This document shows, piece by piece, positions 8,631 to 54,197 of a DNA stretch of 58,286 bases (position 1 is its first letter; each line of letters opens with the position of its first letter). The DNA comes from Chrysochromulina tobinii. Taxonomy: Eukaryota > Haptophyta > Prymnesiales > Chrysochromulinaceae. Under the pieces are notes generated by a model. That model saw only the letters and a list, made by a program, of their open reading frames with translations, was not told the origin of the DNA and did no database searches. Where the stretch lies: NCBI GenBank assembly GCA_001275005.1, contig JWZX01003336.1, forward strand, positions 1 through 58,286, written 5' to 3'. The translations under genes and the position numbers were made by a program.

Positions 8631-10106
8631 ATGAAGCTGGTCATCCTTGTCGGGATCGCACTTGTATCTGCACAAGATGTATATAGATTGCACGACGCTG
8701 CGAGAGAAGGCGACGTTGATAAATTGAAGGCTCTGGTGGCGGCGGGTGCATCGCTTGAAGCGCAGGCTGATAACGAAGCCACGCCACTGCACTTGGCTGC
8801 GATGCACGGCCAGACAGAGTCGATCAAGGCGCTGGTGGAGGCGGGTGCGTTGGTTGATGCGCAGGCTCGTGACAAATACACGCCACTGCACTTGGCTGCG
8901 GAGCACGGCCATACAGAATCGGTCGAGGCGCTACTCGCGGTAGGTGCGTCAGTTCATGCGCGGGCAGACCGTGGAACCACGGCGCTGCACAAGGCAGCGA
9001 TGAACGGCCACTCTGAGTCCACCAAAGCGCTGTTGGCAGCAGGCGCATCAGTCAATGCGCAGGGCGACAACAGAGCCCTGCCGCTGCACTGGGCTGCATT
9101 TCAGGGCCATTCGCATACTATCCTTGTGTTGCTGGAGGCGGGCGCATCGGCCGAGGCGCAGGATGACCAGAAAATCACCCCGCTGCACTGGGCTGCGGGG
9201 GGAGACCATACAGAGTCGATCAAGGTGCTGTTGGCGGCGGGTGCGGCTGTGGATATGCAGGATAAGAACAATGCGACGCCGCTACACTGGGCTGCGAAGA
9301 AAGGCCATACCCAGTCGATCATAGTATTGGTGTCGGCGGGTGCATATGTGGATGCGCAGGGCGGCGGCGCTTCGCTCGAGGCGCACGGTGACAAGAAGGC
9401 GACGCCCCTTCACATGGCCGCAATGCACGGCCACTCGGAGTCGATCAAGGCGCTGGTGGCGGCGGGTGCAACGGTGGATGCGCGCGACGACGAGAACGCC
9501 ACGCCACTGCACTGGGCTGCTGGGACGGGTGATCTCAACACTGATTCTCTCTGAGTCCGTCTGACTGAATCCGTCTCATCGCAGGCCTTTGTTGGTGTCT
9601 GTTGGTGTGACTGATTGCCTCCCTCATCAAGTAGCAGGTACCAAGGAGCACCTGATGACCTCTGATGACCTATGATGACCTCTGATGACCTCTGACGGCC
9701 TTATTCCTCAGGTACCCCGGAGTGGTCCAGCAATGCGGAGTCGATCGAGGCGCTCGTGGTGGCGGGTGCGCCGCTCGAGGCGCACAACGACAAGAAAGCC
9801 ACCCCGTTGCACTTGGCGGCGATGCACGGCTATCCTGACTCAGTCAAGGCACTGGTGGCAGCGGGTGCGTCGCTGGGGTCGCAGGGTGACAAGAAAGCCA
9901 CCCCGTTGCACTTGGCGGCGATGCACGGCAGACTGGATTCGATCATTGTGCTCCTCGCGGCAGGTGCGTCGGTCGATGCGCTGGACGACGAAAATTCCAC
10001 GCCGCTTCACATGGCCACGGAGCAGGGCCGTTCGGAGTCGATCGAGGTGCTGGTGGCGGCGCGTGCGGCGCTTGAGACTCGAACCGACGAAAAAGACGAA
10101 GTGTGA
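8631..10106 (+). CDS. Secreted ankyrin-repeat protein (two exons)
   Basis: Exons 8631-9528 and 9712-10106 join in phase (898+395 nt) to give about 430 residues. The first residues, MKLVILVGIALVSAQ, are a signal peptide, so the repeats are predicted to be lumenal or extracellular, which is unusual for ankyrins. About 13 repeats of 33 residues follow (T/A-x-L-H-x-A-A-x-x-G-H-x-E-S-I-K-A-L-L/V-x-A-G-A), about nine in exon 1 and four in exon 2. The repeats are also near-identical as DNA (about 99-bp period), which indicates recent tandem expansion. Around 9353-9385 a repeat boundary carries a partial duplication (VDAQGGGASLEAHGD), a scar of unequal recombination. The protein ends soon after the last repeat, in a charged tail. 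No enzymatic domain is visible, and the partner is unknown. Confidence 0.8.
9529..9711 (+). mobile_element. Introner (family A) forming the intron of the ankyrin gene
   Basis: This intron begins GTGATC and ends TTCCTCAG. Its body has the family-A repeats in the sense direction (TGATTGCC, CCCTCATCA, then four to five TGATGACCTC units at 9652-9700). Around 9636-9655 it contains a diverged copy of the downstream exon edge (caggtaccaaggagcacc against caggtaccccggagtggtcc at 9709-9728). Splicing joins exon phases 1 and 2 correctly and restores the ankyrin frame. The reading frame otherwise hits a stop at 9552. Confidence 0.8.
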
Positions 10107-10382
10107 TCGCAACTGCGTCGCGCCACGTCCGCGCCTCTGAAGCAACGTGAGCGAGGGGAGAGAGATGGAGGTTCACTCGACCGGTAGGAAACGAAAGTTT
10201 GCTTTGGGTGACCGGACCATACCCCCCCGGTACCTAGTACACGCACGCACCCTAGGGTCAGCATGCCTTCTCGAACATGATGGGCGCGTAGTATGAACTT
10301 ACAGGTGTTGAGACCAGACAGTATGGTACGCATGATGGTACGGTCTGCGGTGATACATGCACAGACTCTTTAGCCGCTCTCA

Positions 10383-11835
10383 CTAAGAGGGCGGCGACTG
10401 GCCGGGCGTGAGCAGCGTCAAGGCTGCTGGGAGCACAGTCGTCTTGAGGGGCGTAACTCCTATGATATCGCCGTCAACCATCAGCTCCAGTGGCGGCTGC
10501 CCAGCCGCCGTCGCGAGCTCGATTGAGGAGGTCGCGAACTTGTACGACACGAGCTTGTCGTGGATGTGCTTACCGCCGGCCTTGATCATGCCATCGAGCT
10601 TGAGCGCCTTGAGCACACCAATATGGCTGGGCGTGTACATGATGTCGATCTTGCCATCGTCGAGCTGCGCCCTCGGGCACACGCGGATCGAGGCGCCCGT
10701 GTGCTTGTTGTTCATCATGCAAATGACGAAACAGCCAAACTCGTGTTTCTCGCCGTCGATGGTGAACGTACACGGAGGGGACTTGCGACCAAATGCGAGC
10801 TTCACGATCTCGAGCGTCTGGGTGAACGAGTACCTGGTTCATCAGAGGCCATCAGAGGTCATCAGGTCCTCAGAGCAATCAGATGATGGGTGAACGAGTA
10901 CCTGGTTCATCAGAGGTCATCAGAGGTCATCAGGTCATCAGAGCAATCAGATGATGGGTGAACGAGTACCTGGCGGGGCCCATCCAGCGGCGCGTCTCGG
11001 CCTTGGCATTGATGACGACGCCAAAGCCCGCGGTCACAATGTTGATCGAGTACCGGGTGAGAGGCGTCGTGCCGTCCGGTCCGAAGCACTCCAGCCTGGA
11101 CAAGTCCACCTTGCGCGTGAGACCGCCCATGATGACGGCGACGGCCGCGCGCACGGCTGCCTCGCCGCGCTGCTTCTTGCCCATCACGTCGTGCATGAAC
11201 GTGTTGCCGGTGCCGCCGGGCAGGAAGCCGATGGCGCAAGATGGTTGCGGCTCGCGGCGCATGAAACCGTTGATTACCTCGGAGAGCGTGCCGTCGCCTC
11301 CAAGTGCGCAGAGAGCGTCCACTCCGGTCAAGTCCGCGGTTTCAGCGAGGCCCACGCCGTGGCCGGAGTGCTGTGTGGCCAGTGCAACCACCTCGACGCC
11401 GGCCTCCTTGAATGCAGGGTTCACCACGTTGTCCATGAGCTTCTGGCCGCGCTTGCCACCTGATACAGGGTTGTAAATGACAACGACCTTTTTAACCGAG
11501 ATGGCCTCGCTCGCCGCCGTAGTGAATGGCGCGAGTAGCGGCGGCTTGCCCTTTGTTGAAGCTGGTGGAGCTTCAGGAGGTCCCGGTGGTGGTGAAGCGG
11601 GCGTCACCGCCACCACCTCCGGGATCTCAACCGCCACCGCCGGGATCTCAACCGCCTCGGGTGTCACCGGCGCCGGAACCTCCTTCATCTCAGTTGAAGT
11701 GGGCATATCAACTACCGCCGCCGAACCCTCCTGAGCCTCGGTTGAAGCGGGTGGTGGTGGCGGATACTCCGGAGCCTCGGTTGAAGCGGGCGTGTCGACC
11801 ACTGCCACTGCGACTTCTCCAACCTCGGATGCCAT
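10383..11835 (-). CDS. Lipid kinase with diacylglycerol/sphingosine kinase catalytic domain
   Basis: Exons 11835-10970 and 10833-10383 join in phase to about 438 residues. The N-terminal 110 residues are a low-complexity linker of P/A/E/V with repeated PASTEAPE-like units. The DAGK catalytic fold starts near residue 130 with VVIYNPVSGG. It has the nucleotide-binding G-G-D-G-T near residue 190 and P-G-G-T-G-N-T near 215, followed by the C-terminal lobe in exon 2 (MMNNKHTGASIRVCPRAQLDDGKIDI). Such enzymes phosphorylate sphingoid bases or diacylglycerol at membranes; the sequence alone does not settle the substrate. An in-frame ATG at 11979 would add 48 residues. I prefer 11835 because the extension looks untranslated. 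Tandem with the upstream kinase gene on the same strand. Confidence 0.85.
10834..10969 (-). mobile_element. Doubled introner (2 x 68 nt) with exon-edge duplication
   Basis: The intron is two tandem 68-nt units, 10834-10901 and 10902-10969. A 15-nt exon-2 edge (10819-10833, plus strand tgggtgaacgagtac) recurs exactly at 10887-10901 and 10955-10969. Each unit alone would be a valid GT-AG intron: GTACTCG at the 5' end, TGATTGCTCTGATGACC repeats inside, AACCAG at the 3' end. This is what insertion with a target duplication followed by one tandem duplication would leave. Confidence 0.9.
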
Positions 11836-15400: not shown

Positions 15401-17121
15401 GCCCACCTGATGAGGGGTGGTGCGATCAGCGGTCATCAGCGGCCATCAGCGGCCATCAGCGGTCATCAGAGGTCATCAGAGGTCATCACTGGCATGTGCG
15501 GGCCCACCTGATGAGGGGTGCAATCAGATGCCATGAGGGAGGCAATCAGTGGCAGTTACCCAAGTTGGCACTCCCAAGCCGCGCGCTTGGATCGACAGTC
15601 ATGAGCTTGTGCAGCAGGTCCTGGAGCGTGGCGGAGCAACACTCGTCGTCGAAGGTGATCTTGCACTTCTTGATCATGTTGATGAGGGAGCCCATGTCGA
15701 CGGAGCGAAAGGGGCGCTTTCCGTGCACCATCTCGTACAGGACGCACCTGATGAGGCAGGCCATCAGACGCAATCAGCACGCACCCAGTGGCAATCAGCA
15801 TACACTCAGACGCACTCAGCTCGCACCCAGACGCAATCAGCATGCCCACGCAATCAGCCACGCACCCAAAGGTCCACCAGTCGACCTCATAGCTGTACTC
15901 TCGGCCCATGAGGACCTCGGGCGCTATGTACTCGGGTGTGCCGCAGATCGTCGCCGTGCCCCGCTTCTTTTGCTTCTCGCCGTCGGCGTTCACATCGCCG
16001 AGCTGCTTCGAGAGCCCAAAATCGGTCAGCTTCAGGTGGCCGTCCACCCCGATCATCACGTTCTCGGGCTTGAGGTCGCGGAAGATGACGCCGTGCGCAT
16101 GCACATGCTCGAGCGCGAGCGCAATCTCAGCGGCGTAGACAACGACCCAGGCCTCACGCAGTCTCCCTTTGGCCTCAAGCAGGTTATGCAGGTCGCCGCC
16201 GCCCATAAAGTCCATGACCAGGAAGATATTCTCATCCGTCTGGAAGGCGAAGCGCAGAGAGATCACATACGGATGCGGCCTGGCTGCCATCTGCTGCATC
16301 ACCTGCTTCTCGGCGATGGCCTGCGTCACGCGCGTCGCGTCGCTGTAGAGCAGCTCCTTTCGGATCACCTTCATCGCGTACACCTTCTGCGTGTCGATCT
16401 TGGTCGCCATCATGACCTTCCCAAACGTGCCCTCGCCGCACAGGCCGTGCACCTGAAAGTGGTCGAGCCCCACCGTCGTGTCCAGAGGCGTCGTGGGCCT
16501 GGCACGACGCGTAGCCAGGTTCTCGGGCGGGCTCGAATGCGGCGAGAGAGCCTCCAGCTCCTCTCTCGACGTGCGCAGTTCTCTCGACCTTAGCTCCTTC
16601 GAGTGATTCCTGGACGGTGTCCTGGACGGTGTCCTGAACGGCAACTCGCTCGTGGCTTCTGGGGCTGAGTCGCTGTCGTGGCTGGTCGAGGCACCTGCAG
16701 CACCATCCACGTGGCTGCGCGGCTTGATCTTCCTCAAATGCAAATGCCCAGGGTAGGCCGCGAGTTTATTCCACGTCAGGCCGCGCGTCGCAACCTGAGC
16801 TTGCGCCTCGCCCAGCTGCTGGAAGAACTCGGACTTTACCAAGCCACGCTCCTCCTGGTAGTGCGATTCGGTGTACCAGAGAGCATCGGCGCCTGCCATC
16901 TCGCCTGTGTCGAGCGCAACGAGAGCCGACGGGATATAGCTCTCTTCCAGATCCAGGAAGCTAGAGTAGCCTTTTGATCCATGCGCTTCAAAGTCTCGCC
17001 ATCGTACACTCTTACCCTTGGGGCGCTCTTTGGGTTGGGGGGGCGGTTCGTTGAGCGCCATGGGCGGGTGCTCGCTGCCATCCCAGCCCGAGCGTACGCG
17101 CCGACGGCCGTTGAGCTGCAT
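12421..17121 (-). CDS. AGC kinase - PAS - SnoaL-like - PAS - LOV fusion protein (photoreceptor candidate)
   Basis: Exons 17121-15866, 15747-15560, 15406-13155, 13087-12564 and 12523-12421 chain in phase to 1,440 residues. An AGC-type Ser/Thr kinase spans about 216-530: glycine loop G-E-G-T-F-G-K-V, FRDLKPEN catalytic loop, DFG, CGTPEYIAPE, and the AGC C-tail with FTTY. Then come a PAS-like domain (about 590-700, ALGYNQLGKQQLLGRS), a SnoaL/NTF2-like fold (about 770-905, AFPDLHF...GTHLGPYT...GKIVDHS) and a second PAS (about 1055-1180). Last is a LOV domain (about 1250-1360) with GRNCRFLQ. It holds the cysteine that forms the flavin adduct in phototropins, and keeps the WN...FW segment. Phototropins have LOV before the kinase; here the order is reversed. 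The last intron (12524-12563) is only 40 nt and may instead be a frameshift. An alternative start is 17268. Confidence 0.8.
15407..15559 (-). mobile_element. Introner (family A), intron 2 of kinase-LOV gene
   Basis: 153 nt, donor GTAACTGCC, 3' end CACCCCTCATCAG. Midway (plus 15490-15515) it carries a second CCCTCATCAG terminus followed by a diverged copy of the exon-3 edge (GTGGGCC...GCACATG against GTGGGCC...GCGCATG). It looks like two nested or tandem insertions. Splicing restores the AGC motif RLGSANLGGPARMKEHPFF. Confidence 0.85.
15748..15865 (-). mobile_element. Introner (family A), intron 1 of kinase-LOV gene
   Basis: 118 nt. It interrupts the kinase between WWTFG and CVLYEM. The donor begins GTGCGTGG and the downstream exon begins GTGCGTCC, so the first six bases of intron and exon match. 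The interior has GCTGATTGCGTCTGAGTGC-like repeats, and the 3' end is TGCCTCATCAG. Confidence 0.9.
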
Positions 17122-17404: not shown

Positions 17405-19018
17405 CTATGCGGCTGCCGCGGTGCCCGGGCGCTCGTAGACAGCATACAGGTTGTAGCGGATGCCAGCGGTCAAGCAAGAGACGCCGTGCACGATGCGGCA
17501 GTCGTGTGCTGTCGCGCTTCCGGCGCGCCGAGTCGGGCACACGATCCTTCCATCGAGAGCAAACAGAAGGTGTGCGCCTTCAAAGTCGTCGTTGAGTGCG
17601 ACGTTGACGACGACGAGGCTCGAGTCCCGGTGGAAGGGGACCACCTCATCGTGCGTACCCTCGAGCGCAGCACGCCGGCGCAGCTTGAATGTGGCGCGAA
17701 CCGCAGCAGGGTCAGCACCGAGGGCCTGTAGCTGTTGCTCGCCCAGTTCGAGCATGTTTCGTATCGCATCGGTGCCCACGAGGGCGCCGAGCTCATCGTC
17801 GGCAATGTCAAGCTTCAGATCACGCGGCGCATCGGGCGAGGCGCTCGATTTGAGCTGGAGCTCAACGTGATCGACCAGCTTGGCGCGCTGCATGCCGTCC
17901 AGCAGCGGCGTGCCCAGCTCGAGGAACGGGGCGATGCCGCCAGTAGCAAGTGGCTTGGCGAAGGGCGGTGGCGGTGGGCCAGCAGCGGCAGCGACCACCT
18001 TGGCGACGTCAGTCGGAGAGGCGTTGGTAGCTGCGTGAGCGTCTACCAGTAGGTGGCGCTCGACGTCAGAGGGCGGCAGCCACTCGCCGATGTCGCCGCG
18101 CATCTTCAAAGTTGCATGAAGCATGCTGTCTGGCTCGATGTTGTAGTCTGCGAGCGTGCGCTCGTCCTCGTGCATGTCAGACCTATCTGGTTTCCCCGAG
18201 CCAAGGAGTCGCCCTCCTCCGATTAGATTAAGTTGATCTGGTGGCACGCCCTCCTTGTACATGTACTTGGCCTTGACGTTGCCGATCGTGTCAGACGGCT
18301 CGACCTCGAGGGTGATCGTCTTGCCGGTGAATGTCTTGACAAAGATCTTTTTGCCGCGCACTCTGAGGACCAGATGAAGCGTCGCCTCCTTCTGTATTTT
18401 GTAGTCCGAGAGGGTGCAGCCGTCCTCGAGCTCCTTGCCCGCGTAGATCAGGCTCTGCTCGTCGGGCGGGATGCCCGCCTCGTCCTGGATCTTGGCCTTG
18501 ACGTTGTCGATCGACATAGAAGGCCTGACATCGAGGGTGATCGTCTTGCCGGTGAGCGTCTTGACAAAGATCTGCATACCACTGCGCAGTCTGAGGACAT
18601 GATGAAGCGTCGACCCCCGCTGGATGTTGTAGTCCGAGAGGGTGCAGCCGTCCTCGAGCTCCTTGCCTGCGAACATCAGGCGGTTCTGGTCGGGCGGGAT
18701 GCCCACCTTGTCCTGGAACTTGACCTTGACGCTGTCAATCGACTCAGACGGCTCGACCTCGAGGGTGAGCGTCCTGCCGGTGAGCGTCTTGACAAAGATT
18801 TTCATGAGTGCGTTGGGCCTGTTTGCTGCGATGGCGCGGGGCTGAAGCTCGCCATCCTGCGCAGTCGCCGATACCGCGTTCATGAGCGCGCCCCTCGGAC
18901 TGGTCAGGCCGAGAAGCACCTCGACTGCCGCCTCGACATTGCCGTTGCAGCTATCGAGGACGGCTTGCAGCGCATCCCGATCCATGTCTGGAAACATGGC
19001 GAGAAGAATTAACGCCAT
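17405..19018 (-). CDS. CUE - three ubiquitin-like domains - 2OG-Fe(II) oxygenase fusion
   Basis: Intronless, 537 residues. Residues 1-42 form a CUE-type ubiquitin-binding helix bundle (MFP near 8-10, [11 protein letters not shown] near 26-36). Ubiquitin-like domains run at about 72-147 and 148-223, close to canonical ubiquitin, and at about 224-307, diverged with an insert of about ten residues. The units end R-S-G and R-G-K instead of R-G-G, so deubiquitinase cleavage is unlikely and the domains should stay fused. The lysine equivalent to K48 is kept in units 1 and 2 (AGKELEDG). Residues about 350-537 resemble a prolyl-4-hydroxylase-type 2OG-Fe(II) dioxygenase: HRD supplies H and D of the iron triad, VHG the second H, and [11 protein letters not shown] the Arg that binds 2-oxoglutarate. 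The substrate is unknown. The fusion suggests an oxygenase acting on, or recruited through, ubiquitin. Confidence 0.85.
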
Positions 19019-19697: not shown

Positions 19698-19834
19698 TCA
19701 TTCCGCATCCTCCTCATCCTCCTCATAGTCCTCATCCTCCTCGCTCTCGAAGTACGAGCCCAAATCGTCCGACTCGGACGCATCGTCCGAGCCCCAGTTG
19801 CACAGCTGCCACGCCTCGTCGTCGTACTCGCGCG

Positions 19835-19865
<31 letters not shown>

Positions 19866-21076
19866 CGCGTACGCGCCGTCGGCGGCGCCGATGGCACCGT
19901 CGGCGAGCTCAGTTTCGTCATCTTCAGAGGAATCCGACGACTCATCGAGCAGCGCCGCCTCGCGCCCGGCGCCATCAGCCGCCTCGCCGCTCGCACCCTC
20001 GACACCGCCCGCGCCGCCCGCGTCGCCCGCACCGCCCGCGCCGGACGTGCCGGACGCGCCCTTCCGCCGTCGCTGCCGGCAGATCTCATCGAGCTTGCGG
20101 AGTAGCTCGAGCGCCGAGCCTCCCTTGCGCCGGAGCAAGCTCATGGGTGAGTCCGTGCCACCTACCCCTACATAGAGCTCTGCGCCCGCCCGGACCAGTA
20201 AGCAGGCCACCTCCTCAAACTCGCGCCCGCACGCGAGGTGGAGCGCGGTCCGTTTCGTCGCCGAGAGAGCGTTCGGACGCGCACCTGTGGGGAGGAGGAG
20301 TCAGGGCGCCGTGGTGAGCGTATGCATGCATTCGAGAGAGCGTTCGGGCGCGCACCTGGCTCAAGGAGCCATCAGAGGCAATGAGGGTGGCAATCAGTGG
20401 CCCTCAGTGGCAATGAGGGTGGCACTCAGGGTGGCACTCAGTGGCAATGAGGGTGGCAATCAGGGGCACTCAGTGACAATCAGTGGCCATGCGAGCACAT
20501 GCGGCCACGCGCCTGCGCCGAGGTCATCAGTGATCATCAGAGGTCATCAGTGATCATCAATGGCCACGCGCCTGCGTCGAGGAGCCGTTGGCACACGGCC
20601 GCATGCCCGCCCGCGGCCGCCGCATGCAACGGCGTGCAGTCCGAGAGCATCCCCACACAAGAGACGAGCGCGCCTGCCTCGAGGAGTTTCGTCAAGAGCG
20701 GCTCCTCCCCGTGGTACGCAGCGCAATGGAGGAGCGTCTCGCCGTACGGCGGCGTCGACTCATCCGCATTGATCGAGCGGAACGTGAGCGGATCGCGCCG
20801 ACGCCAGCGCGCCGCCACCGCGAGGTCATGTGGCTCAAGCTCGGCGACGAGTTTCGTCAACCCCGACGCATCGCGCTCCATTAGGCAGCGCCAGAGCGTC
20901 TCGGCGCGCTGTGCCGAGCACCGCTTGAGCTCGCGCGCCGTCTCGAGCATCTCGCGCGTCGAGGCGAAGGGCGAGGCGCGGTGGCGTGCGCCGAGCGGCG
21001 GCTGTAAGCACTTGGGAGCGCTCGCGATTGCGTCCTCCATCAGAAGCTCGTGCAGCATCGCCGACTCGGCGCGCAC
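19698..21076 (-). CDS. Giant gene, exons 49-50: ankyrin repeats and acidic C-terminus
   Basis: Exons 21076-20572 and 20284-19698; stop codon at 19698-19700. About three ankyrin repeats: GETLLHCAAYHGEEPLLTKL, CTPLHAAAAGGHAAVCQRLL and RTALHLACGREFEEVACLL. The last is split by a GC-AG intron, and the join restores LLDAGARPNALS. After the repeats comes a helical segment (LRKLDEICRQRRRKG), a G/A/S linker made of GAGGA-type repeats, and an acidic tail ending EEDAE. Confidence 0.8.
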
Positions 21077-36000: not shown

Positions 36001-39000
36001 CCACGGATGAGGGAGGCCATCAAAGACGTTTAAAGGCCATCAAAGGCCATCAAAGGCCATCAAAGACCACCTGCGAGCTCCAGGCGTAGATCCAACGGTT
36101 CTCCTCTGGGCGTGGCGGTAGCTCGACCGCGCACGAGAGGGAGCCCGCCTGCCGCGCACGGAGCGCCGAGCGCCGGTTCTTGCAGAGCAGCACCGAATGG
36201 ACCGAATGGAGTGCCTGCGAAGAGGAGCGGGCGCCGTGGTGAGCACTAACGCCGTGGTGAGCACTAACGCCGGGTGAGCACTGGCATGCATCGGTCGGCC
36301 TTCCGTACGCCTCCGAGCACTCTGTCTCTGTGTCTCTCTGGCGCGCGCGCGCGGCGCGCTCTCTGGCGCGCGTTCAGCCCCAACAGGGTCTGCCTTTGGC
36401 CGAGAGCGCGAGATGAGCAGTGGGGAGCGCACACCTCATCGAATCGACGGTCGGACGGATCGCACACGCAGCGGGAGAGCAGCGTGAGCTCTTCGTCGAC
36501 GGAGAGACGGCAGTTTGCGCTCACGTGTTGCAGCTTGCGCACGTAAGACGCCATCTCGACGGACAGGTCCCAGCCGGGCGAGACGGGCGAGTCGAGCATC
36601 ACCTGATGAGGGAGGCAATCAGGCACGCAATCAGGGAGGCTATCAGAGGCGCCATCAGGCGAGACGGGAGAACTTCGGGTGAGACCTCACCAACGAGATC
36701 TTGAGCCGGCATGCATGCGCATCTGGGTGGCCGTCGGCCGAATTCTTCGGGCTCGTCATGAACTGGAGCGAGGCGTTCTCCTCGAGTGTCAGGTTTGTGT
36801 CCGAGCTCACCTGCCAAATTTGGGGGAAGTACTCAGCCGCAATCAGACACTCATTGAGCGTCAGGTTTGTGTCCGAGCTCACCTGCCAAATTAGGGGGAA
36901 GTATTCAGTCGCAATCAGACACTCATTGAGCGTCAGGTTTGTGTCCGAGCTCTCCTGGTGAGGAGGCCATCAAGGGCAATCATGACCATCAGAGGCGTTC
37001 TCCTCAAGCGCCATATAAATCTGACCGAGCTCACCGTGTTTACGAGCTGCAGATGAGGCAGGCAATCAGAGGCCATCAGAGGTCATCAGAGCTCACCGTG
37101 TCCACGAGCTGCACCACGGAGCGATAATTCCTATTCAGGTACCGGAGCAGCAGCAGATAGAGAGCCGAGGCGAGCGTGGTCGAGTACCTGATGAGGAAGG
37201 CAATCAGGCGCCATCAGAGGTCACCAGAGGTCATCAGAGGTCATCAGTGGTCATCAGTGGCAAGCAACGTACAGAAAAGAGAGCGACACGTGCACTGGGT
37301 AGATGTAGAACGGGTTCTCGAGGTTGCTCAGCCATCGCTTATCCGAGCGCTCGAGCACGAGTTCCGTCGCGAAGGGCACGCTCGCGATCGAGGGGCGGAC
37401 GGGCGGCAAGGAGGGCACGAGGACGGACATCTCGCCTGAGGAGGCAGAAAATCAGGCATACTCAGGCGTACTCAGGACATACTCGGGCGCAATCACACGT
37501 CATTAGGAGGTCATCAGGTGATTACCGTTCGAGTTGGAGAGGAGCAATGAGTGCGGGATGCCCGCGAGCAGCTCGGTCGTCATCGAGTTGCGCTCGTTGG
37601 TGATGAACAGGTCGGCATGGTCGACCGAGTAGAGCCGCACCTGATGAGGGAGGCAATCAGGCACACTCAGGCACACTCTCAGGCGCCATCGGCCGCAATC
37701 ACAGGATCGGCATGGTCGACGGAGGAGAGCCGCGCTGATCCCTTACCTCCCGCGCAATCACCCGTCATCAGGAGTTCATCAGGAGGTCATCAGGAGGAGA
37801 GCCGCACCGATCCCTTCACCTCCCGCGCTTGGAAGGTCAGCTTGAGCCGCGGGAGAGAGACCAGGCACAGGTCGGACTGCGCGACCGATCCCGGCTTCGT
37901 TAAGTCGGTGGCGTCATCCCAGCGGGCCCACGCAAGCACCTGCGAGAGCGTCTCGAGGCGCGCCATCACGTCATCAAAGGTCATCAGAGGTCATCAGAGG
38001 CCATCAGCGTACCTGCGAGAGCGTCTCAATGCGCGCCATCACCGTCGCGAGAGAGTACAGGTACGAGTCAGCGGGCGCATGCAGCAGGTCGAGCAGCACG
38101 AGCTCCTCATCCTCGAGATCGGAAGCGGACATGGCGCGAGATCGCTCGAGATCGGGGGCGGCGGGGGCGACGCCTGACGAAACTGATGAAACTGACGGGC
38201 CTGACGAAACTGATGAAACTGACGGGCCTGACGAAACTGATGAAACCGACGGCGCGGCCGATGAAGGGGTGGCGACTGTCGCGTCCGAGGCGGGAGATGC
38301 GGGAGATGCCGCAGCCGCGGCCACCAAGCCGGCAGCTGCAGCCCGCTCCTCGTCTGCCTTTGCCATCAGCGCTGCCAGCGAGTCGAGGAGCATCGGCAGC
38401 ACCACGGCTGAGATGCGATGACGACGGCGGCGCCGCCGAAAGCCGTTCAAGTCGAGCAGCTCTAGCAGTGCTCGGAACGGCGCGAGCTCGGCGGCATTTG
38501 CGGCGATGACGGCGCTCGTCGTCGTCGACGACGACGATGAGGAGGTCGCTTGCCTGGGAGTGGCCTGATGACGAGCGCTCGTATCGCCGGCGGCGCCGCC
38601 GAGCGCCGAGCCCGATGGCGCCGTACTGGGCGTCCTGCCGGGCACCGCACCGGGGCCGTTCCCTTGAGTTGCATTCGCGGCCGCCTTGCGGAACGCGGGG
38701 TGCCCTTGGCGAGAGAGCAGCTGGCCGAGTGCCCGGCAGACCTGATGCGTGGGCTCAAACGGCCCGACGATGAGCTCCTCGTCGCGCACGAAGCGCTCGA
38801 GGGTCTTGAGAGCGCCCAGGACGACGTCCCGCTGCCTCGTGAGGCGTGCCGCCTTGAGTCGCAGGATGCATGCGCGCGCCGGAGGGAGCGCGTGGTCCCC
38901 AGGGCGCACCTGATGAGGGAGTCAATCGGGGGCAATATTTAGGGGCCATACGGGGCAAGTAGGGACACTTGGCACTCGGACGCAATCACAGGTTCGGCAT

Positions 39001-42000
39001 GGTCTCCGGACGCACGCGATCGAAGCGAGCGCCGTGGAAGGCGACGTGAGCGCCCGCGAAGAGCTGGATGAGGAGGATGCTCGAGCAGCTCGACACGTCC
39101 CGTGGGTAGCCGCGCACCTGTGGGGAGAGAGGGGCGGTCTCGCGCCGTGGTGAGCACTTGCATGCGGCGGGGGCCATCCCGCGGGGAGAGCCGCGCACAT
39201 GATCGTCCTCATCCTGCCAGAAGGCATGCGTGTCGAGGAGTGCCTGCGGTACGAGCCCGTAGAGGAGGCGCGAGGGGAGGTACGTCTCCCGCCCGAGCGA
39301 CAGATTGGCCTCGACCATCCAGTCTCGCGTAATCACGGCGGATTTCGTCTGGTTGTGCGAGTCGCCATAGGGATGGCCCGCGCCGTGCCGCTCCCACTCC
39401 GGCCACATGCCTTCGCGGTGCGCCGTGGACGGCTGCATGTCGCGACAGGCAGTAGCGCGCGTCGCTGCAGTACTCGAGAGAGCGGTAGAAGCGTCGGCCG
39501 TGCGTACTCAATGCGGTACTACGTGCTACCATACGCCGTGCGCGGTACACGAACAGCTCGCGCCACACGCCTGCCTGATCCGGTTGCTTGCCCACGAGGT
39601 ACGCGACCTGCGCGTCCTCATGTAACGGCTCCTCAGGGGCCATCAGGGCCATCAGGGCCATCAGGGGGGGCATCAAGCGCACTCACCTGCGCGTCCTCGG
39701 CTAACGGTTCTTCGGGCAGGTAGACCTCGAGCGGGCGCGGGAAGAGCAGGTACGTGCGCCGTACCGGCTCGAAGACGGACGGGAGCCATATCTTTTCGGA
39801 TGGGAAGAGCTCGTCGGGGTAGTACGCACGGTGGTGGTCGAGCAGCGGCAGCTTCGGATCCTTATTAGGCCAGTGCTCAATGTCGTGTGAGCGGCCGACG
39901 AGACGGTAGCACGAGCGCCAGGTACTCTGCTCCGTCAGGCACGCTTGCATGCTCACCTCTCCGAAGATGTCCACCACGTCCTTCAGCCGAGCGACATCTG
40001 TCGGTAGAGCCTGTGGGTGCGACGCACGCAGCGTGAGCTGCATCAGCTGAGCATCGACCTCGACGGCGAGCTCGGAATCTGCCATCAGAATGATCCTCTC
40101 GGGCTCCTCGGCCGGTGTCGCCGCGCTCATCGCCGGCACGATGCTCGGCACGACGCTCGACCTGCTCACTATCGGCGGCACCGGCGCGTGCTCCGCGGCG
40201 GCACTCGGCTGGCGGCTCAGAGCGGGCGCGCTCGCATCGCTTGCCTGTCGACTGAGCCCGGGCGCCGGAGTGGGCACAGCGGCCGCCGCCGCCGCCACCG
40301 CCGCCGCCGACGACAGCTGCTGCTGCGTCTTCGAACGCGACGAGTGCAGCGCAAAGCGCCCGTGATTCTGCTCGCCAGCCACGTAGGCCCACCGGTGGGG
40401 CACCTCGTCACTCGTCGGCTTGAGAGCGCCCGTCGAAGCGGACACACGAACGACCGAGTCCATGACCAGATCGAGCTGTCGCTGGTCGGCGCGCTCGCGG
40501 AGCCACGTCACCACCTTGCGCCGCAGCACGTGCACCGCCTCGTACACCTCCGTCTCGGGGATGCGCCACCCGCCGTATGACGAAACTCCGTCCTTGCGGT
40601 CGAGCAGCGCCATGTTCCACTCGTGACGGGTCGAGAGGAAGACGACTGCCGTCACCACCGTCGTGACGCGGCCCTCGGTGAGCGCCGTCGTGGGCACGTT
40701 GCGCAGCGTGAGCAGCAGGTGTGCATGGAGGCTGCACATGTGCTTCGTGTTCGTGTCGAGCACCTGCTCGTCGTCGGACGAATCGCTCGCAAGGTCGCGT
40801 CAATTGCAATCAGTAGCGATCCACAGCAATCAATAGCCATCCACAGCAATCAATAGCAGTTCGTCAGACAGCAGATGGAGTAAAGGACAGCAAGCAACAG
40901 CGCACCTGGTCGTCTTCGGACGAGTCGCACTCCTTCACGAGCTTATGGTACCACGCCTGGATGAGTCTCGTCATCTCTCCCCACAGGACATGGCGCAAGT
41001 GCTCCTGAGCGACGCGAAGCCGCGCCGCAACGCCCGGCGCGCAGCGCAGCCCCCGGAAAGGCTTGCCACAGATGCAGTCGTGCGTGCCCTCCTCGTACGC
41101 GAGCACAAAGGAGATGTAGTTCTCGAGGCGGCAGCACAGGCGCGCCACGTACAGGATGACGGTCGAGGTGGACGACTTGAGCGTGCCAGTGTCAAGGTCG
41201 CACGCCTGGAGCGAGGCCATTTGGGCCCATTCAGAGGCACTCAGCGGCCGTCCATCGCAATCAGTGGCCATTTGGGCCCATCGCAATCATCGTAATCAGA
41301 GGCCATTTGGGCCCATCGCAATCAACGCAATCAGTGGCCATTTGGGCCCATCGCAATCAACGCAATCAGTGGCCATTTGGGCCCATCGCAATCAACGTGT
41401 CTGACGGTGTCATATCTTCATATCTAATAGTGTCTGACGGTGGAGATCGCACCTGGCGTAGCAGCCGAAGCACCGAGTTGAGCAGCGTATCAGGCGATCG
41501 ACACAGCTCATTGAGGAGCAGATGATGCGCTGTGCCGAGCAGCTCGGGCGCCGAGGTGGGCACATCCACCGGCTCCATGGCCGCCGACGCGTGGGGCAGG
41601 TGCGCTCCGGGCTCGAAGAGGACAGCGTCGAAGAGCGCCTGGAGCTGTGGGGACTGGAGCGAATGGCACCGGTCGTCGGAGGCGAAGAAGGACGCGACGA
41701 GCGGGATGCGCAGGTAAGGGACCGTCAGGTAACTGAGCAGCAGCTCGGAGTCCTGCTGGCCAAGCGCGCGCGCGTGGGCCACGTCCAGCTCGCCAAAGTC
41801 GGGCAGCTCCCACCTGATGAGGGAGGCGACCAGAGGTCATCAGTCGCAATCATTGGCAATCAGAGGTCATCAGAGGCCACCCGAAGCAATCAGATGCCAT
41901 CAGTTGCCATCAGCGCTCATCAGCGCTCATTAGCGCTCATCAGCGCTCATCAGCGCCCTTGAGAAGAGCGAGAGGCAGGCAGCTCCACGCATGTGAAGCA

Positions 42001-45000
42001 CTCAGAGGTCATCAGAGGTCATCAGAGGTCATCAGAGGTCATCAGAGGGCAGCTCCCCACATGTGAAGCACGTCATCCTCGCTCTCAATGAAGTACGGGC
42101 GGGTGTACTCCGAGGGATGTGCCAGCGACGCAAACCGATGAACCGGGGGCATCTCGCCGCGCTTGACACGCGGGCGGCACGAAAGGGTCGAGTCCTGGAA
42201 CCCGGTCACGTAGAAGCGCTCCGATCCGTCATCATAGTGGAAGATGAGCTCGGCGTCTTTCTGGGTCCAAGGGTGCTTTGCGGGGAAGCGCCGGATGTCG
42301 GGGTTGAGGAAGAGCTTAAAATAGTACGCGATGTCGCGGTAGCCTGCAGCAGTTGATGAGCAGTTGATGAGCAGTTGATGAGCGAGAGGCAGTCAGACGC
42401 CATCAGACACAATCAGGCGCCATCAGGGGCGATTACATCGGAACTCGGGGTAGTTCTTGATCACGAGCTCGCGCGAGTCGGAGATGTAGCGCGGCGTGTT
42501 GTACCCGTCCGACGGGAAGGCGAGATCGGCGCAGATGAGCCCGAGCCACTTGGTCGTGCCCGACTCGAGCCGCTCGGTCTTCTCCCAATTATAGATGCGC
42601 GTGAGCGATGACTGGCAGTTGAAGTAGTCGAGCACGCATGCGCGCGCCGTATTGAGCTCGGGCGTGTGTACCGGTACGACGGCCGCCTGGAGAGCCAGCG
42701 CCGCCGCACCGAGCGTAAAGCCCTTGACGGGCCTCTCCTTGGTGCCCGTTACGGCGCCTGGCCTCGACGCGTCGGTGGCAGCGGCCGCGGTGGCAGTGGC
42801 CGCGGTGGGCGTCGCGCAGCTGCCGCCTGGCTCCTTCGCGCTGGTGGTGCTGGCGGTCGTGGGTGCGGCGGCTGTGGACGCGTTCGAGGCCATCGCCGCC
42901 GCGATAACGGCCGCGCGACTCGCCGCACGACTCGCCTTACTGCCTTTCGCATCTCTGCCGCCACCGCCGCTGCTGCCACCGCCGCTGCCGCCGCCGCCGC
43001 TGCCGCTGCCGCTGCCGCTGCCGCTGCCGCTGCCGCTGCTGCCGCCGCTGCTGCCGCCGCCGCTGCTGCTGCTTCGGCCGCTGAGGTGGATGCAAACCTC
43101 GGATGGCAGATCCACCGCAATCTGGCGCATGATGCAATCCGCGACCGCCGCGATGCATGCCGGCACGACCATCCGAACTGCATCGAGAGAGCGCGTGTGG
43201 TCGACGCCAAAGACAGATGCGGCGAAGTGCTCGACGAGCCGCTGCAGCAAGAGCATGGCGTCTAACTGCTGCGCGTAGAGCATCGGCGAGCGCCATACGC
43301 ACTCCTTCGCCGTCGGGTCGCCCTCGGGCCGCGGCAAAGGCAAGAGCACCGTCATCGTGTGCTGGATCATCGCGATCTTGAGGAAGTTCGTGTTCTTGAC
43401 GCAGTGCACCTGCACCGCGATCAGGGTGCACAGACGGTCGCAATGGCGCAGTGCGTTGACGGCCTCGTCAAGTGTGCGTACGATCGCGGGCTGCTGGAGC
43501 ATGTCGATTGGCGTGTACCGGGGCAGCCCGTGGGCGGTGCCCGCATCGACCGGCTCGCGGCGTAACAGGCGCTCGAGCAGAGGGTGGTGGTGCGCCGTCT
43601 CGGGCGGCTTGACGGACGACCACGGGAAGGAGCGCGCGTGCTTGCGCATCAGGCGCACGCCGTCCGTTGAGATGACGGAGCCATCTGAGGCGAGGAGCAC
43701 CTGTGGGGAAGCGAGGGCGCCATGGTGAGCACTCGCATGCAGGGCATGATGCAGGGCATGTCCAAGGCATGTTTCGAGGCACATGGGAGGGCGCCATGGT
43801 GAGCACTCGCATGCAGGGCATGATGCAGGGCATGTCCAAGGCATGTTTCGAGGCACATGGGAGGGCGCCATGGTGAGCACTCGCATGCAGGGCATGATGC
43901 AGGGCATGTCCAAGGCATGTTTCGAGGCACATGGGAGTACCAGGCACGGCATCGCGCCGACGTGGAAGACCTCGGCGAGCAGCGCAGGGTACGCTCCGCC
44001 GTGCGGCAGCGCAGGCCACGGCATCGCACGCCGGTAGACGTCAAAGTCGCTCTCGGACGCATCCTGCGAGACGAGGAGAATCTGAAGCCCCTTGCCGCGG
44101 TGACGAAGCGCATTGTAAGTGGAGGCGAGGAGCGGCGTCGTCGAGCGGCATGATGGACACCACGAAGCGGCAAAGTAAAGCCCGATCACCTGATGAGGGA
44201 GGCAATCAGAGGTCGTCAGAGGCCGTCCGAGGCAATCAGAGGTCTTCAGAGGTCATCAGCGGCCAAAGGAAAGAGCCCGATCACCTTCATCCCCTCGAGC
44301 GGTCATGAGAGGTCATCAGCGGTCATCAGAGGTCATCAGCGGTCATCAGAGGTCATCAGCGGTCATCACCTCCATCCCCTCGAGCGCCTCTTCGATCGAG
44401 ATCGAGGCGAGCTCACCACCGGCCGCGCCGTCCGCGCTCGACTGCGAGAGGGCGGCGATGCGCCGCTGGCGCTCCTGTGCCGTGATCTGGCCGCTCGCCT
44501 CGAGAGAGTATGCCTCGCGCACCGCAGCGGCAGCGCTGCCCACCGGCTGAGCCGAGGTTGACGAAACTGACGAGCCTGCCGAAACTGACGAGGCTCGCGC
44601 GCCGGCGGCCGCCGACGCGCCGCTGCCACCGGCCGGTGCGTGTGGGCTCCCTGGAGGCGCAACGTCCGCGCCGCCGCTCTCGCCGCCCGTGGTTGCACTG
44701 CTTGGTAGCAGCGGCCGCCCAGCTGCGCCCAGGAGTGCGGCTAGCGACGGGCGGCCGAGATGTGCATCGCTCTCGCAGAGGATGAGTGGAGGGGGGGCGG
44801 TCGATGAGGGCGCGGCGCCTGGCTTGGAGAGGAGAGTCGTTTGAAGCTTTTGAATGCGCTCGCGAGTGGCAGCGAGCTCTGCCACGCTGAGCGGCAGCCC
44901 CGCAGCGGCGGCGGCGGCGGCAGCAGCAGCAGCACCAGCAGCAGTAGCACCGGCAGCGGCAGGGGCGGCTCGCTCCTCGCCACCCTCGCATCCCAGCTTG

Positions 45001-48000
45001 GCCGCCTTGTACGCGAGCTGCCGGCACGCAATGTTCAAGATCGAGCGCTCCGCCGGCGAGACGTGTGGCACAAAGCCCAAGTCATGCTGTGCCATCTGGA
45101 GCAGCTCGGCACGCAGCAGGAGAGAGAGGCGTTTCCACTCAGGGACGCTCACGCCAAAGCCGCGTAGCAGGAAGCGCAGCGTGTGGCGCACGCAGCCGTA
45201 GTGAGCCGAGCCCGAGCGGCGCGCTGTGCGCATCTCGGGCGGCTCGTCGGCACGTGCGTTCGATCGCAAGAGGGCTTGCTCAAGAGAGTCCTGCGCCACA
45301 GACGAGAGAGCCATCAGAGGCGAGGCCGAGGCGATCAGAGGCCATGAGAGGCGATCAAGGCTCATGAGAGGCGATGAGAGGCGATCAGAGGCCATGAGAG
45401 GAGATCAAGGCTCAGGAGGGGCCATCAGGCGAGATCTCACCTCCGCCACAAACGAGAGGAGCAACTGATAGAGCACCTGGTGCGCCGAGAGCTTGCCGCC
45501 GTTGTCCACGCTGGCGGCGTACCAGAGGACGGCCCAGAAGGCTTCGTCACGGAGCCGCGCGAGGCGCACGTCGCGCAGCGTCAGGCAGGTGGCGAAGCGG
45601 ATCTTGGGCGGCGTGGCCGCGGCCTCGTGGTGCGCGAGAGCCTCTGGATCACAGGAGACCACGGTGAGCTGGCACAGCGCCTCGTGGGGGGTGCGCTGCC
45701 GCTCGACGAGCAGGATCAGAGGCCCACCTGATGAGGGAGGCAATCAGAGGTCATCAGAGGCCGTCCGAGGCAATCAGAGGTCATCAGAGGCGTCATCAGC
45801 GGCGTCATCAGCGGCAGCCCACTGGCATGCGATGAGGGGAAGCATCAGCGAGGCCATCCGAGTCATCACATGCACTCGCAGGCAATCGCAGGCGCTCAGC
45901 GGCCCACCGCCGACGGCACAGGGCAGCACGAGCATGCCGCCAGGCTCGAGGGATTCGAGAGCCTTGAGGGCCTTGGATAAGTACATGCGCTGCTGCCCCT
46001 GGTGGCCCATTGCATGCGCCAGCTTATGCGCGAGCTTCTTTGCGTCTTCGAGCAGCGTACACGTCGTGTTGAGTGCGGCGCGCTGCGCGTGCGGCAGCGA
46101 ACAGGCGGCGCCGTGCGGCTCGGCGAGCAGCCGCTGCAGCGTCAGCACGACCACCTCGAGCGAGATGTGCAGCGAGCCACCGTCGAGGCCCGTCCCAGCG
46201 ATGAACGCGTCGCCCACTTCGGCCGCGAAGGCGGGGTGCAGCCAGACGGGCGGCGGCTTGGCATAGAGCGGCTGGAGAGAGAGCTGCTGCGAGCGCGCCG
46301 CCTCGGCCTCGTCAAGGAGCTCGGCCTCCTCATCCTTTCCTCGCAGGCTGTGAAGCTCCTCGCGTACCTGTGGGGGGAGGGCGCCGTGGTGAGCACTTGC
46401 ATGCATGCAGGGCCTGATGCTTTCCTCGCAGGCGGTGAAGCTCCTCGCATACTTGCTCTTCAGTCCAGACGCTTGAGACGAGCTTCACGTACCTGTGGGG
46501 GGAGGGCGCCGTGGTGAGCACTTGCATGCAGGGCCTCCTGCAGTCCAGACGCTCGAGACGAGCTTGACGTACCGCACCGCCAGGCCGCGCTCGCTGCCGC
46601 CGTCTTCTCCGCCGCTCAGCAGCGCCGCGCTCATCAGCGAGGCGCCGTGCTGGGCGAGACCCGCCGAGACGCCGGCCGCCGCGCCGCCCGCCGTCGCCGC
46701 CGAGGAGGCGAAGGCGCTCGACACGGCGCTCGAAGATGCCCCGCCGGAGGACGCGGCGCCCAGCACGGCGCCTCCCCGCGCGGCGAAGAGCGCCACGTGC
46801 TGCGGATCGAGGCAGAAACGCTCCGGAGGGGGGGCGCCGTGTTGGGCGCCGTCTTTGCCGCCCTTGCCGCCGCCGCCGCCCTTGCCCTCCTTATCCACCT
46901 CCTTCTCCACCCCCTCCTCGGCCGCGCGCGCCGTGCCGGCGGGCTTGAGCTTGGACTTGTCGAGCAGCTTGGCCGACTCGAGTTTGATCTCCGCGCACAG
47001 CCGGCCGTTGACGTACGTCTTGAGCTCGCCTTTCTTGCGGGTGACTGCCACCCAGGCCCAACGCTCGGCACGGACCGTCGCGTCCTGGCTGCACGCACGA
47101 AACGCGAGCGAGCACTCAGGGCGCACTCAGGATGCACTCAGGGCGCAATCAGGACGCAATCAGGACGCACTCATGACGCACTCATGACGCAATCAGGGCG
47201 CAATCAGGGCGCAATCAGGACGCAATCATGACGCAATCATGATGCACTCATGACGCAATCAGGGCGCACTCATGACGCAATCAGGGTCATCAGCGTACCT
47301 GCCCATCTGGCCCAGCGCGCCGACGCCGCCATTCTTGTACACCTGCACCTGGTCGAGCTGCTCGCCCTGGGTCGGCGGGCCGCCGCCGTGGAAGAGCGGC
47401 AGCGTCGCCGTGGGCAGCCGGTCAAGCCGCAGCGCGAGCAGCAGCGAGTACCGATGCAGCTTGCCATCGTCTTCGAGCGTCCACGCGTTGACGTAGGGCA
47501 TGCTGAGCTTGAGGTAGCCGCCCTCGGGCATCACGAGCGCGGCGCTGCCGTCCTCCTGCTCCTCGAAGCTCGCGTCGCCGCCGATGACCTCGAGCCCCTC
47601 GGGCAGCTGGCTCTGGCTCTGGCGCAGGTCAGCAGTCACGAGGGTCAGGGTCTGGCCGCTGCCACTGCCGCCCCACTCCATATCCCTGCCGCTGCCGCCG
47701 CTTCCACGCCCGTTGCGGCCGGTCGGCTCGCCGGCGCGGCCCTTGCCGTTGCCGCAGCTGCGCTGCTGCTCTGCCTCTCGCACGTGGTCTTCGCTCGTGC
47801 CGCCGGCTCCGTTGCGGCCCGGTGAGGTGGCGGCCGCGCGCATCAGCGCCGTCGTGGTCGTGTCATCGTCGTCGTCGTCAAAGCCGAAGCCATCGGTCCA
47901 GATGGAGAGGCCACCGATCCCGCCGAGTCCGCCGAGCCGGCCCTGCCGGCGCGACATCTTAGAGTCCGCCGCGTTGTCGAAGGCCGAGCGCTCCTCCCGG

Positions 48001-52574: not shown

Positions 52575-52682
52575 GTGTTTCGTCGCGGGGCGCCATGCCG
52601 GGCATGAACGTGCCGTGAAAAAGGGCTATTACCGTTACGCGGAGAGAAGCCCCTCAACCGTGTATGCGCACCTGCACGCAGT

Positions 52683-54197
52683 TCAGCTGAACCCGGCGGT
52701 CACACCAAGCTGCAACCCGTTTCCAACGCTGGCGTCGCTCGGCGCCTTGCGCAGCACGTGCACCATGTTGAGCTCGAGCCGACCGAGCGGGGTGGGCAGC
52801 GCAACGCCTGCGCCCACGCTGGCCCGCAGGGACGGCACCACGCTACCCGCCGCGCGCACGGCGGCGAGCCCCTGCAGCCCGCCCACGGACGCGAATATGT
52901 GCGCATGGCCATCGGACTTGGCTAAGTTTCCTGGAAGGGTTGTCGAGAGAGAGGCAGTGGCGACGCCGAGGAGGTCTCCTCCGAGCGCGTCGTGCGACGA
53001 GATGCTCGGCGGCTTCTTGGGCGCCGCGGCCGTGGGCTCAGCCGCCGACGCCGCCGGCGATGCGAGGCTATGACGTTCATCACGTGGCCCAACGCCGCGC
53101 GTGCGGAATCCCCACAGAGAGCCAGGCCCGCCGCAGAAGAAGCGGTCACAGATGTGGCTCTCGGTCGGCCCGCCGAGCAGCCCGCCGAAGAGCCCGCCCA
53201 GCGGCAGCAGCACGCCCGCGTGCACCTGCACGCTGGCAGTGAGCCGACCATTCGCCATCAGCGGTGTGAACGCTGCGGCGGTGAACGTGCTCTTGACGAA
53301 GCGCGCGTCGCCGAGCGGGAACGGCGCGAGGCCTGCGAGCTCCGTGTGCAGGCGCAGCAGCGCGCCGCTCGTGGGCACCAGTGGATGGTCCACCTGATGA
53401 GGGAAGCAATCAAGGGCGTCATCAGAGGTCATCAGAGGTCATCAGAGGTCATCAGAGGTCGTGGGCACCAGTGGATGGTCCACCGTCGAGCGTGCGTAGC
53501 TATGAGAGAGGCTACTCTTCAGGCTCTGCCCACGTTGCTGCAGGATTGCCCACGAGGCGGTGTGGGGTGTGAGCCGGCAGACGTCGCGCAGCTCGAGCGC
53601 GTACGTGAGCTCGTGCCGACCGCCGGCCGCGCCGGCCGATCCCACGCGCACGCTCGCGCTCGCGCCGAGCAGCTTCTGCACGAAGGACGAGTGTTTGATG
53701 TGCGAGATCGCCTGCTTGCTCACATCGGCGCTGAGCTGCGCGTCCTGGCCCATCCAACGCGGGCGCACGGCGCTCAGCTTGAAGGAAGAGCTCTTTTGCT
53801 GGCCCATCTCCATTTGCGCCTCGAAGATCTCCGCGCGTCCGAGCTGGTTGCGCACCGCCACCTTGGCCTCCATTGTGTTCTCCGACGACTGCGTCGCTAC
53901 CATCGTGCTCGCACTGGTCAGCCGCTTCTTCTCGGTGACAGTACACACGATGTCGACGAGCGCCGCGCCGTGGGGAGTCGCGCCCTGCGCCGTGTCCATA
54001 AGCAGGTCCGCCGAGTCGAAGATGCCGAGCGACTGCAGCGCACCCGCCACGGCGAGGCAGCCCTGGTGGAGCTCACCGAGCGTGCGTGCCTTGTTGAGGC
54101 TGGCAAGCTCCTGCCGAACGACGCTCTCGTGCGTCTTCTGCAGCCCGCGCACGCGCATGCGGCGCACAGCGACCGGATGCTCGAGTTGGGTACCCAT
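52683..54197 (-). CDS. SAM50: SAM50-like Omp85 outer-membrane beta-barrel insertase (mitochondrial)
   Basis: Exons 54197-53484 and 53393-52683 join in phase to 474 residues. Residues about 10-75 form one POTRA-like domain (VRGLQKTHESVVRQEL...LGIFDSADLLMD). The barrel follows: VTEKKRLTSASTMV, LGRAEIF, then QRGQSLKSSLSHSYARST and SGALLRLHTELAG. The Omp85 signature is RFFCGGPGSLWGFRTRGVGPRD, and the protein ends in the beta-signal-like QLGVTAGFS. The SLKSSLSH and ELAG elements are closer to SAM50 than to Toc75/OEP80. SAM50 inserts beta-barrels such as VDAC and Tom40 into the mitochondrial outer membrane. Divergent from a Tic22 gene. Its only intron is a clean introner. Confidence 0.88.
53394..53483 (-). 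mobile_element. Introner (family A) with 25-nt exact target duplication in SAM50
   Basis: 90 nt. The 25 nt at plus 53369-53393 (exon 2 edge) recur exactly at plus 53459-53483, which is the 5' end of the intron. The body is four copies of gaggtcatca plus an AGGGCGTC variant; the 3' end is CCTCATCAG. Removing the 90-nt element restores one uninterrupted frame. Confidence 0.95.

Follow-up and report, generated by a model that had tools for sequence, protein, structure and literature searches.

Probable introners between long, variable exon duplications in the haptophyte Chrysochromulina tobinii

Short mobile pieces that probably make new spliceosomal introns—so-called introners—sit between long direct duplications of exon sequence in the genome of the haptophyte Chrysochromulina tobinii, where they would be inserted via staggered breaks. 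They are described here for a stretch of 58,286 nucleotides (contig JWZX01003336.1 of assembly GCA_001275005.1, C2177 in our numbering, hereafter the window) and for the entire genome of 53,154,812 bases in 2253 contigs. The original prediction, made from the letters of the window, had held that introns in five unrelated genes on both strands share sequence and fall into two mobile families, A and B. The sharing across five genes and both strands was borne out, but one stretch holds most of the copies. The long direct duplications of exon that flank the clear insertions are an observation absent from that prediction.

Family A had been described by CTGATNNCCT units and a CCCTCATCAG terminus, and its motifs occur in the window far above expectation: the unit TGATKRCCTC has 72 matches against 0.42 expected, and CCCTCATCAG has 16 against 0.19. 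For family B, the predicted tail stands in part. Its introns carry the core GCATGCAAGTGCTCACCACG (11 window matches with up to 3 mismatches, 0.02 expected) and end in CCCCACAG. The GC-rich part GCGCCCTCCCCACAG, on the other hand, shows a nonsignificant 12 matches with up to 3 mismatches versus 6.03 expected, and its sole exact copy lies on the + strand at 22457; hence, it is not diagnostic by itself. A search of the whole genome showed that the similarity is not confined to the locus. The 16-mer GCCTCCCTCATCAGGT from the 3′ end of family A has 1014 exact copies (483 + 531), a family B 20-mer has 587 (290 + 297), and a family B 28-mer has 81 (38 + 43), versus 0 genome matches for the backwards-read control patterns of the A and B motifs.

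The architecture of the insertions was read at 100 loci (40 A and 60 B), chosen by motif alone among the listed motif places. The layout looked for was U-T-E-T-D, in which the insert E lies between two direct copies of the local exon sequence T. Hybrids joining upstream and downstream halves of unrelated loci served as control, and a bracketing repeat was accepted at a score of at least 13. Such a repeat is present at 42 of 60 B loci and 22 of 40 A loci, versus 14 of 711 B and 15 of 467 A hybrids, that is, 2–3%. Two B loci, L055 and L090, are near-duplicates of others; dropping them leaves 58 B loci (41 with T) and 98 nonredundant loci altogether. At 47 of the 63 T-bearing loci (30 B and 17 A), the 5′ edge of T has a GT at most 6 nt away, and an AG occupies the corresponding position. 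In the common arrangement, type R, T starts with GT and E ends with CAG, so that the intron consists of one T copy plus E and its splicing restores the exon. Among the 47 clear loci, 42 have a G as the last exon base ahead of the GT, and 46 have a CAG at the intron end; the far edge of T bears no strong motif and is slightly C-rich. Counted from the GT, T measures 14–47 bp in family B (median 30.5, n = 30) and 11–42 bp in family A (median 22, n = 17). The T copies have a median identity of 0.96 and are identical in 12 of 47 pairs. The introns span 68–93 nt in B and 67–141 nt in A, and the lengths of T and E are negatively correlated (B: rho −0.68, p 3.5e-5, n = 30; A: rho −0.50)—a trade-off that is expected if a minimum intron length is under selection.

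The insert of family B measures about 42 bp without leading filler and contains a branch-point-like CTCAC, a pyrimidine tract and the terminal CAG. It starts −2 to +4 nt from GCATGC in 19 of 30 loci, and the remaining 11 carry 6 to 28 nt of filler; T overlaps GCATGC by 1–2 nt at 6 of the 30. A genome search with the 28-nt filler of L069 returned its own locus only, so no donor was traced. The insert of family A is a variable array of CTGATNNCC units that ends in CCCTCATCAG. Side by side with this, the family A bodies at 21856-22070, 28309-28441 and 44298-44368 were seen to be tandem 10-bp units, each with a branch-point-like CTGAT.

A mirror arrangement, type L, is found in six window introns (Table 1, including the L-type part 44369-44285): here E starts with GT, and the 3′ end of the intron is a copy of the last 17–30 nt of the upstream exon. 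Types R and L even stack at a single intron position; at 37096-36811, a reading by eye leaves only the last T as coding. Tandem T+E-like units of 68–76 bp occur at 10819-10973, 31075-31300, 36784-36957 and 43713-43937. Scoring all window introns for exon copies gave 22 of 63 with a score of at least 13, versus 8 of 743 mismatched pairs. The 63 comprise 59 gene-finder introns (two of 60 were merged as 37096-36811) and four added by hand at 15865, 15571, 10969 and 53483; for 10969 and 53483, T was already known. At least 2 of the 22 are not T copies, namely 46492-46368 (an E–E match) and 42979-42872 (low complexity). The gene models are home-made, and because the second gene finder gives a bonus for A or B acceptor ends, its intron list is not independent of the motif. 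At a locus elsewhere, L023:4416-4538, a type L candidate has a 38-bp T and an insert that by eye belongs to neither A nor B. Both predicted families are thus real, but as a total, two is probably a lower bound, since the insert of L023 suggests that more families exist.

That these segments behave as introns is read from protein homology. Removal of 15865-15748 and 15571-15407 yields a complete kinase domain (Pkinase 2-263 of 263, E 1.6e-65). Aligned to ribosomal S6 kinase (3ubd), the spliced product runs without a break through the first joint and shows a gap of three residues, located three residues past the second; among three donors tried for the first intron, only the chosen one keeps the frame open to the end of the stretch. 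Removal of 53483-53394 gives a Sam50 protein (Omp85 1-312 of 325) whose alignment to the Sam50 structure in PDB is continuous at the joint. Likewise, removal of 10969-10834 gives a DAGK plus YegS_C protein, and removal of 9529-9711 joins two halves of an ankyrin repeat. For the giant DUF3638 protein, a spliced piece of 550 residues was compared with the database proteins P0001 and P0002, and 10 of 10 intron joints are gap-free in the better of the two per joint. P0001 has a four-residue insertion near 37807-37641 and P0002 a one-residue insertion near 36434-36215. The window's protein also has 14 residues of its own, which stop about six residues short of 35315-35195 and possibly represent an unrecognized intron. 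Taken together, this supports the view, from sequence comparison, that the copies are spliced introns in the kinase, Sam50, DAGK-like and giant DUF3638 proteins; the original prediction had named a lack of splicing as what would speak against it, and by homology, the segments act as introns. An open-frame test at the genome joints was uninformative (spliced 35/46, unspliced 22/46, antisense 37/46, shifted joins 65/92): as the genome is GC-rich, reading frames alone are no proof of splicing.

Uninterrupted frames in relatives point in the same direction. P0003 is a 949-residue open frame on a single 52,221-base contig, 75% identical in the aligned part, and runs continuously over 7 of 7 covered joints of the window's giant gene (37272-37188, 37096-36811, 36690-36603, 36434-36215, 36070-35980, 35748-35625 and 35315-35195). 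Its C-terminal end reads as an unspliced frame running into other sequence. As a 52-kb contig is hardly a transcript and this C terminus looks unspliced, the relative that carries P0003 most likely lacks the seven introns. The Sam50 frame is contiguous across 53483-53394 in P0142 to P0145, with P0143 lying on one contig of 9351 bases and P0144 on two contigs, the longest of 42,480 bases. P0142 is a contiguous Sam50 frame of 477 residues, with 71 members and 98–99% identity to the gene in the window; it represents either a spliced transcript or an allele that lacks the intron. Hence, two features of introners are found here: similar introns at nonhomologous positions in many genes, and presence or absence between relatives (P0003 at 7 of 7 joints; P0143 and P0144 open at the Sam50 site). 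The mobile-intron reading of the original prediction is thereby supported by unrelated positions, genome-wide copies, homology-backed exon joining and uninterrupted frames in relatives.

Table 1. Host genes and introner-like introns in the window (a slash marks an exon joint)
Feature	Position	Strand	Details
Ankyrin-repeat gene	intron 9529-9711	+	
DAGK/YegS-like gene	10.4-12 kb	-	
AGC kinase gene	15.1-17.3 kb	-	
Giant DUF3638/DUF3645 gene	about 19.7-48.1 kb	-	two adjoining models, 60 introns together, bridged by P0001
Sam50/Omp85 gene	52.4-54.2 kb	-	
Family A, type R, Sam50	53394..53483	-	T copy 53483-53459 (25 bp), identical to exon 53393-53369
Sam50 intron insert E	53458-53394 (65 nt)	-	CTGATGACCT units, end CCCTCATCAG; cleanest window case
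Family B, type R, predicted	46493..46572	-	T copy GTACGTCAAGCTCGTCTCGAGCGTCTGGACTG; insert GCATGCAAGTGCTCACCACG...CCCCCCACAG
Second family B insertion, predicted	46368..46452	-	directly downstream of 46493..46572; by eye, own T GTATGCGAGGAGCTTCACCGCC... versus exon GTACGCGAGGAGCTTCACAGCC...
Family A, type L	45291..45440	-	GTGAG at insert start; end of the upstream exon (45458-45441) copied in the last 18 nt
Family A stack at one intron position	44190..44369	-	L-type 44369-44285 plus R-type 44284-44190
Three identical 74-bp tandem units with B core	43713..43937	-	core GCATGCGAGTGCTCACCATG
Type L	40764..40905	-	23-bp T; the intron 3′ end repeats the end of the upstream exon
Type L	39608..39686	-	30-bp T (80% identical); insert of CCTGATGGC units
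Family B, type R by eye	39118..39198	-	diverged T (GTGCGCGGCT...), below scan threshold; joint WQDEDDH/VRGYPRD matches contiguous WQDEDDNVRGYPRD in P0001 (by eye)
Type L	37940..38012	-	30-bp T, 28/30 identical; gap-free in P0001
Repeatedly hit intron position	36811..37096	-	by eye: L copy, diverged R copy, two tandem R units; T = GTGAGCTCGGACACAAACCTGACGCTC; joint VDT/VSSD gap-free in P0001 and P0003
Family A, type L	35980..36070	-	24-bp T; insert with CCCTCATC; gap-free in P0003
Family B (GCATGCCAGTGCTCACCACG...CCCCACAG)	35195..35315	-	no clear T; joint gap-free in P0003
Family A, type R, predicted	29908..29988	-	20-bp T
Family A, type R, predicted	27345..27446	-	26-bp T
Family B-like (GCATGCATACGCTCACCACG), type R, predicted	20285..20355	-	23-bp T, one mismatch
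Family A in AGC kinase domain	15748..15865	-	joint DWWTFG/CVLYEM; T not evident
Family A in AGC kinase domain	15407..15571	-	joint SARLGS/GPARMKEHPFF; two stacked 3′ ends
Family A in DAGK/YegS-like gene	10834..10969	-	two tandem 68-bp T+E units
Family A in ankyrin-repeat gene	9529..9711	+	donor GTGATC, acceptor TTCCTCAG; joint ATPLHWAAGT/GTPEWSSNAESIEALVVAG; no clear T

In the mechanism that we propose, an insertion would borrow one splice site from the exon that it duplicates. Type R would take its 5′ splice site from the GT that opens T, with the end of E serving as the 3′ splice site; type L would get its GT from E and its AG from the T copy. Since splicing restores the exon exactly, such an insertion would be nearly silent. 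The duplication itself might arise from staggered strand breaks some 20–45 bp apart, filled in once E is joined, and candidate processes are target-primed reverse transcription or a break repair that copies intron sequence. Selection would then retain insertions with a T edge on a usable GT or AG and a total length of about 67 bp or more. This selection might also explain the splice dinucleotides at the T edges: the mRNA would grow by 30 nt if a full GT...AG insert came with a 30-bp duplication, while types R and L are seamless. As two families and L023 share the long variable duplications, these look like a property of the insertion process and not of one element. A DDE transposase leaves a fixed short duplication, and hence a process like target-primed reverse transcription or break repair fits long variable ones better; the target-site duplications of LINE/SINE-like target-primed insertion are variable in length as they are here. 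One insertion, L060 (a 408-bp locus), has a B copy and a 27-bp T, no splice dinucleotides at the edges and a truncated 3′ end of E. It is possibly an insertion free of splicing selection, although a single case proves little.

Several points weigh against this account. The evidence for splicing is protein homology, for window introns and in one genome, and the absence of introns in relatives is read from database proteins only. We infer the step that makes the duplication; the genome holds 26 RVT_1 matches, of which 22 exceed the cut-off, and these indicate a source of enzyme only, with no link to the elements. The family A insert has no constant 5′ end and is therefore hardly one element. No T reaches the score threshold at 17 of the 58 B loci and at 18 of the 40 A loci, which may reflect decay. 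Among the loci where T does score, nine B and five A loci bear no GT...AG at the matching places—several of these are by eye type R copies shifted by indels, and others possibly score by chance—and two B loci have the GT...AG inside T. Also, when direct repeats were sought without motifs over 255,742 bases, made up of the window plus 20 other stretches, the excess was weak: 18 versus 11 in reversed sequence at threshold 13, and 24 versus 17 at threshold 11, some of it plain background such as four hits on the + strand of the window. Other motif-free scans were weak as well; the clear signal came from anchoring on the motifs. Finally, the ends of family A show a weak inverted match (4 of 17 loci with a score of at least 6, versus 3.5% of shuffles), because CTGATGA, found in the array, reads as the terminal TCATCAG on the opposite strand.

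This inverted match is one of two points that can be held in favor of a cut-and-paste DNA transposon with transposase and terminal inverted repeats, as for the introners of Micromonas and Aureococcus. The other is the introner-like spread, with one splice site taken from the duplication. We consider such a transposon, already disfavored, very unlikely. According to the main text of PMC9860276, characterized introners make duplications of 3–9 bp (4 and 8 bp in examples), carry one splice site and take the other from the target-site duplication, splice seamlessly in most families and are gained in a lineage-specific manner. The elements described here share with them the similar introns at unrelated positions and the splice site from the duplication. 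They differ in the duplications, which are 11–47 bp long and variable at the 47 clear loci, and in the insert, which is about 42 bp (B) or a tandem array (A). Furthermore, family B has no inverted termini (0 of 30 loci with a score of at least 6; mean 3.2 versus 3.5 in shuffles), and the duplicated exon makes up a large share of the intron. A type that carries the 5′ splice site and one that carries the 3′ splice site also occur here in one genome, even stacked at one site. The likeness to Micromonas and Aureococcus drawn in the original prediction therefore holds in part: the introners there are described with short duplications and inverted termini, whereas here the duplications are long and variable, family B has no inverted termini and family A shows the weak match given above. 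Closer by name, and likewise from a haptophyte host, are the introners of a Chrysochromulina sp. metagenome-assembled genome, which by the legend of Fig. 2C in PMC9860276 have no terminal inverted repeats, carry the 5′ splice site, take the 3′ one and make a 4 bp duplication. Compared by this legend, they resemble type L in splice-site use and differ in the duplication, which is 17–30 bp in the six type L window introns. Long variable exon duplications thus appear, on sequence grounds, to differ from the introner duplications in the open-access literature searched, and are set apart from the families of PMC9860276 as its main text describes them.

A possible though doubtful alternative is double-strand-break repair with filler DNA as proposed for Daphnia, in which filling in the staggered breaks leaves direct repeats, filler that is either random or derived from introns is taken up, and only the spliceable outcomes survive. 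The variable length of T and its far edge without a strong motif would fit, as would the insert of L060 with its T-E-T layout, no splice dinucleotides and truncated end, and the common architecture around different inserts such as that of L023. The filler at L082, L102 and L127, clearly a further partial T copy inside E, resembles templated slips; yet only at 9 of 28 loci is filler closer to its own T than to 90% of the other Ts, and clearly so in those 3. Against captured filler stands also the 20-mer that recurs 587 times, which shows that the insert is a copied family, together with its defined start near GCATGC in 19 of 30 B loci. The neo-introns of Daphnia, in the description that PMC4202315 gives of them, have repeats of 4–12 bp, attributed to staggered break repair, and no single shared insert family; here, short repeats with unrelated filler are not what is found, as the insert is a repeated family and the repeats are longer. 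A further account (PMC11782384) reads direct repeats near intron borders as insertion footprints and, in the figures it gives, reports a mean of 11 bp for spliceosomal introns with similarities often of 70–90%, versus a median identity of 96% over medians of 22 and 30.5 bp against matched controls in our case. Tandem genomic duplication of an AGGT-containing exon, which would derive introns wholly from exon, could claim that an exon copy is a large part of each clear intron; the remainder E is a dispersed family common to hundreds of loci, which refutes it as a full account and leaves it next to no probability. The same holds for shared splicing signals, by which each intron would have come independently under selection for a long consensus of branch point and acceptor. 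The conserved cores do hold CTGAT or CTCAC and the CAG end. However, exact 16-mers and 20-mers in the hundreds and 81 exact 28-mers extend past signal positions, GCATGCAAG is conserved upstream of the branch-point-like motif, and exon duplications are present, so that this explanation is refuted too.

The density of copies is patchy: across 20 other stretches totalling 197,456 bases, CCTCATCAG occurs 10 times, with six of these occurrences in a single stretch, and the B core occurs 4 times when up to 3 mismatches are allowed. A whole-bin mixture as the source of this was rejected, as tetranucleotide distances overlap between rich and poor stretches. Introns are also very uneven within the window, with none in CFAP65 (2628-8162, 5.5 kb) and 60 predicted in the giant DUF3638 region (19700-48100). 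The proteins of the window resemble those of haptophytes: the best named match of the intron-free CFAP65 gene is from Diacronema lutheri (37% identity), and named matches of the giant protein come from Pavlovales and from Prymnesium polylepis, the latter with 69% identity over 23% of the query. Regarding spread by viruses, the B 20-mer was found in IMG/VR at one contig end only and the A 18-mer in none. This contig end, L129:4330-4554, has a B core (GCATGCAAGTGCTCACCACGGCGCC...CCACAGGTGAG) directly preceded by what appears to be its own T-E-T, which includes a TGACGAACCC array; no Pfam match was obtained for three frames of this contig end. Metagenome assembly may have joined it to a related alga as a chimera, with real transfer as the alternative. 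L130, the single match in genome_contigs, shows no such architecture by eye and looks like coincidence. Apart from the introns, the − strand of the window has a 228-bp tandem repeat at 18265-18799 whose sequence suggests a diverged polyubiquitin-like gene.

The origin of new introns in bulk is a long-standing question, and here the footprint is legible, with hundreds of copies and identical duplicates at 12 of 47 clear loci. With introners as the favored reading, an insert as small as about 42 bp suffices when the target exon supplies the rest of the intron, and the long variable duplication argues against the known transposase route. A more speculative and rather unlikely idea is that the inserts are halves of excised introns—a 3′ end joined at a proto-splice site G/GT, or a 5′ half after AG—copied into DNA at a staggered nick of 20–45 bp. 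If this were true, intron gain would run via RNA and be general instead of family-specific, and the exon's own duplicate would become part of the intron.

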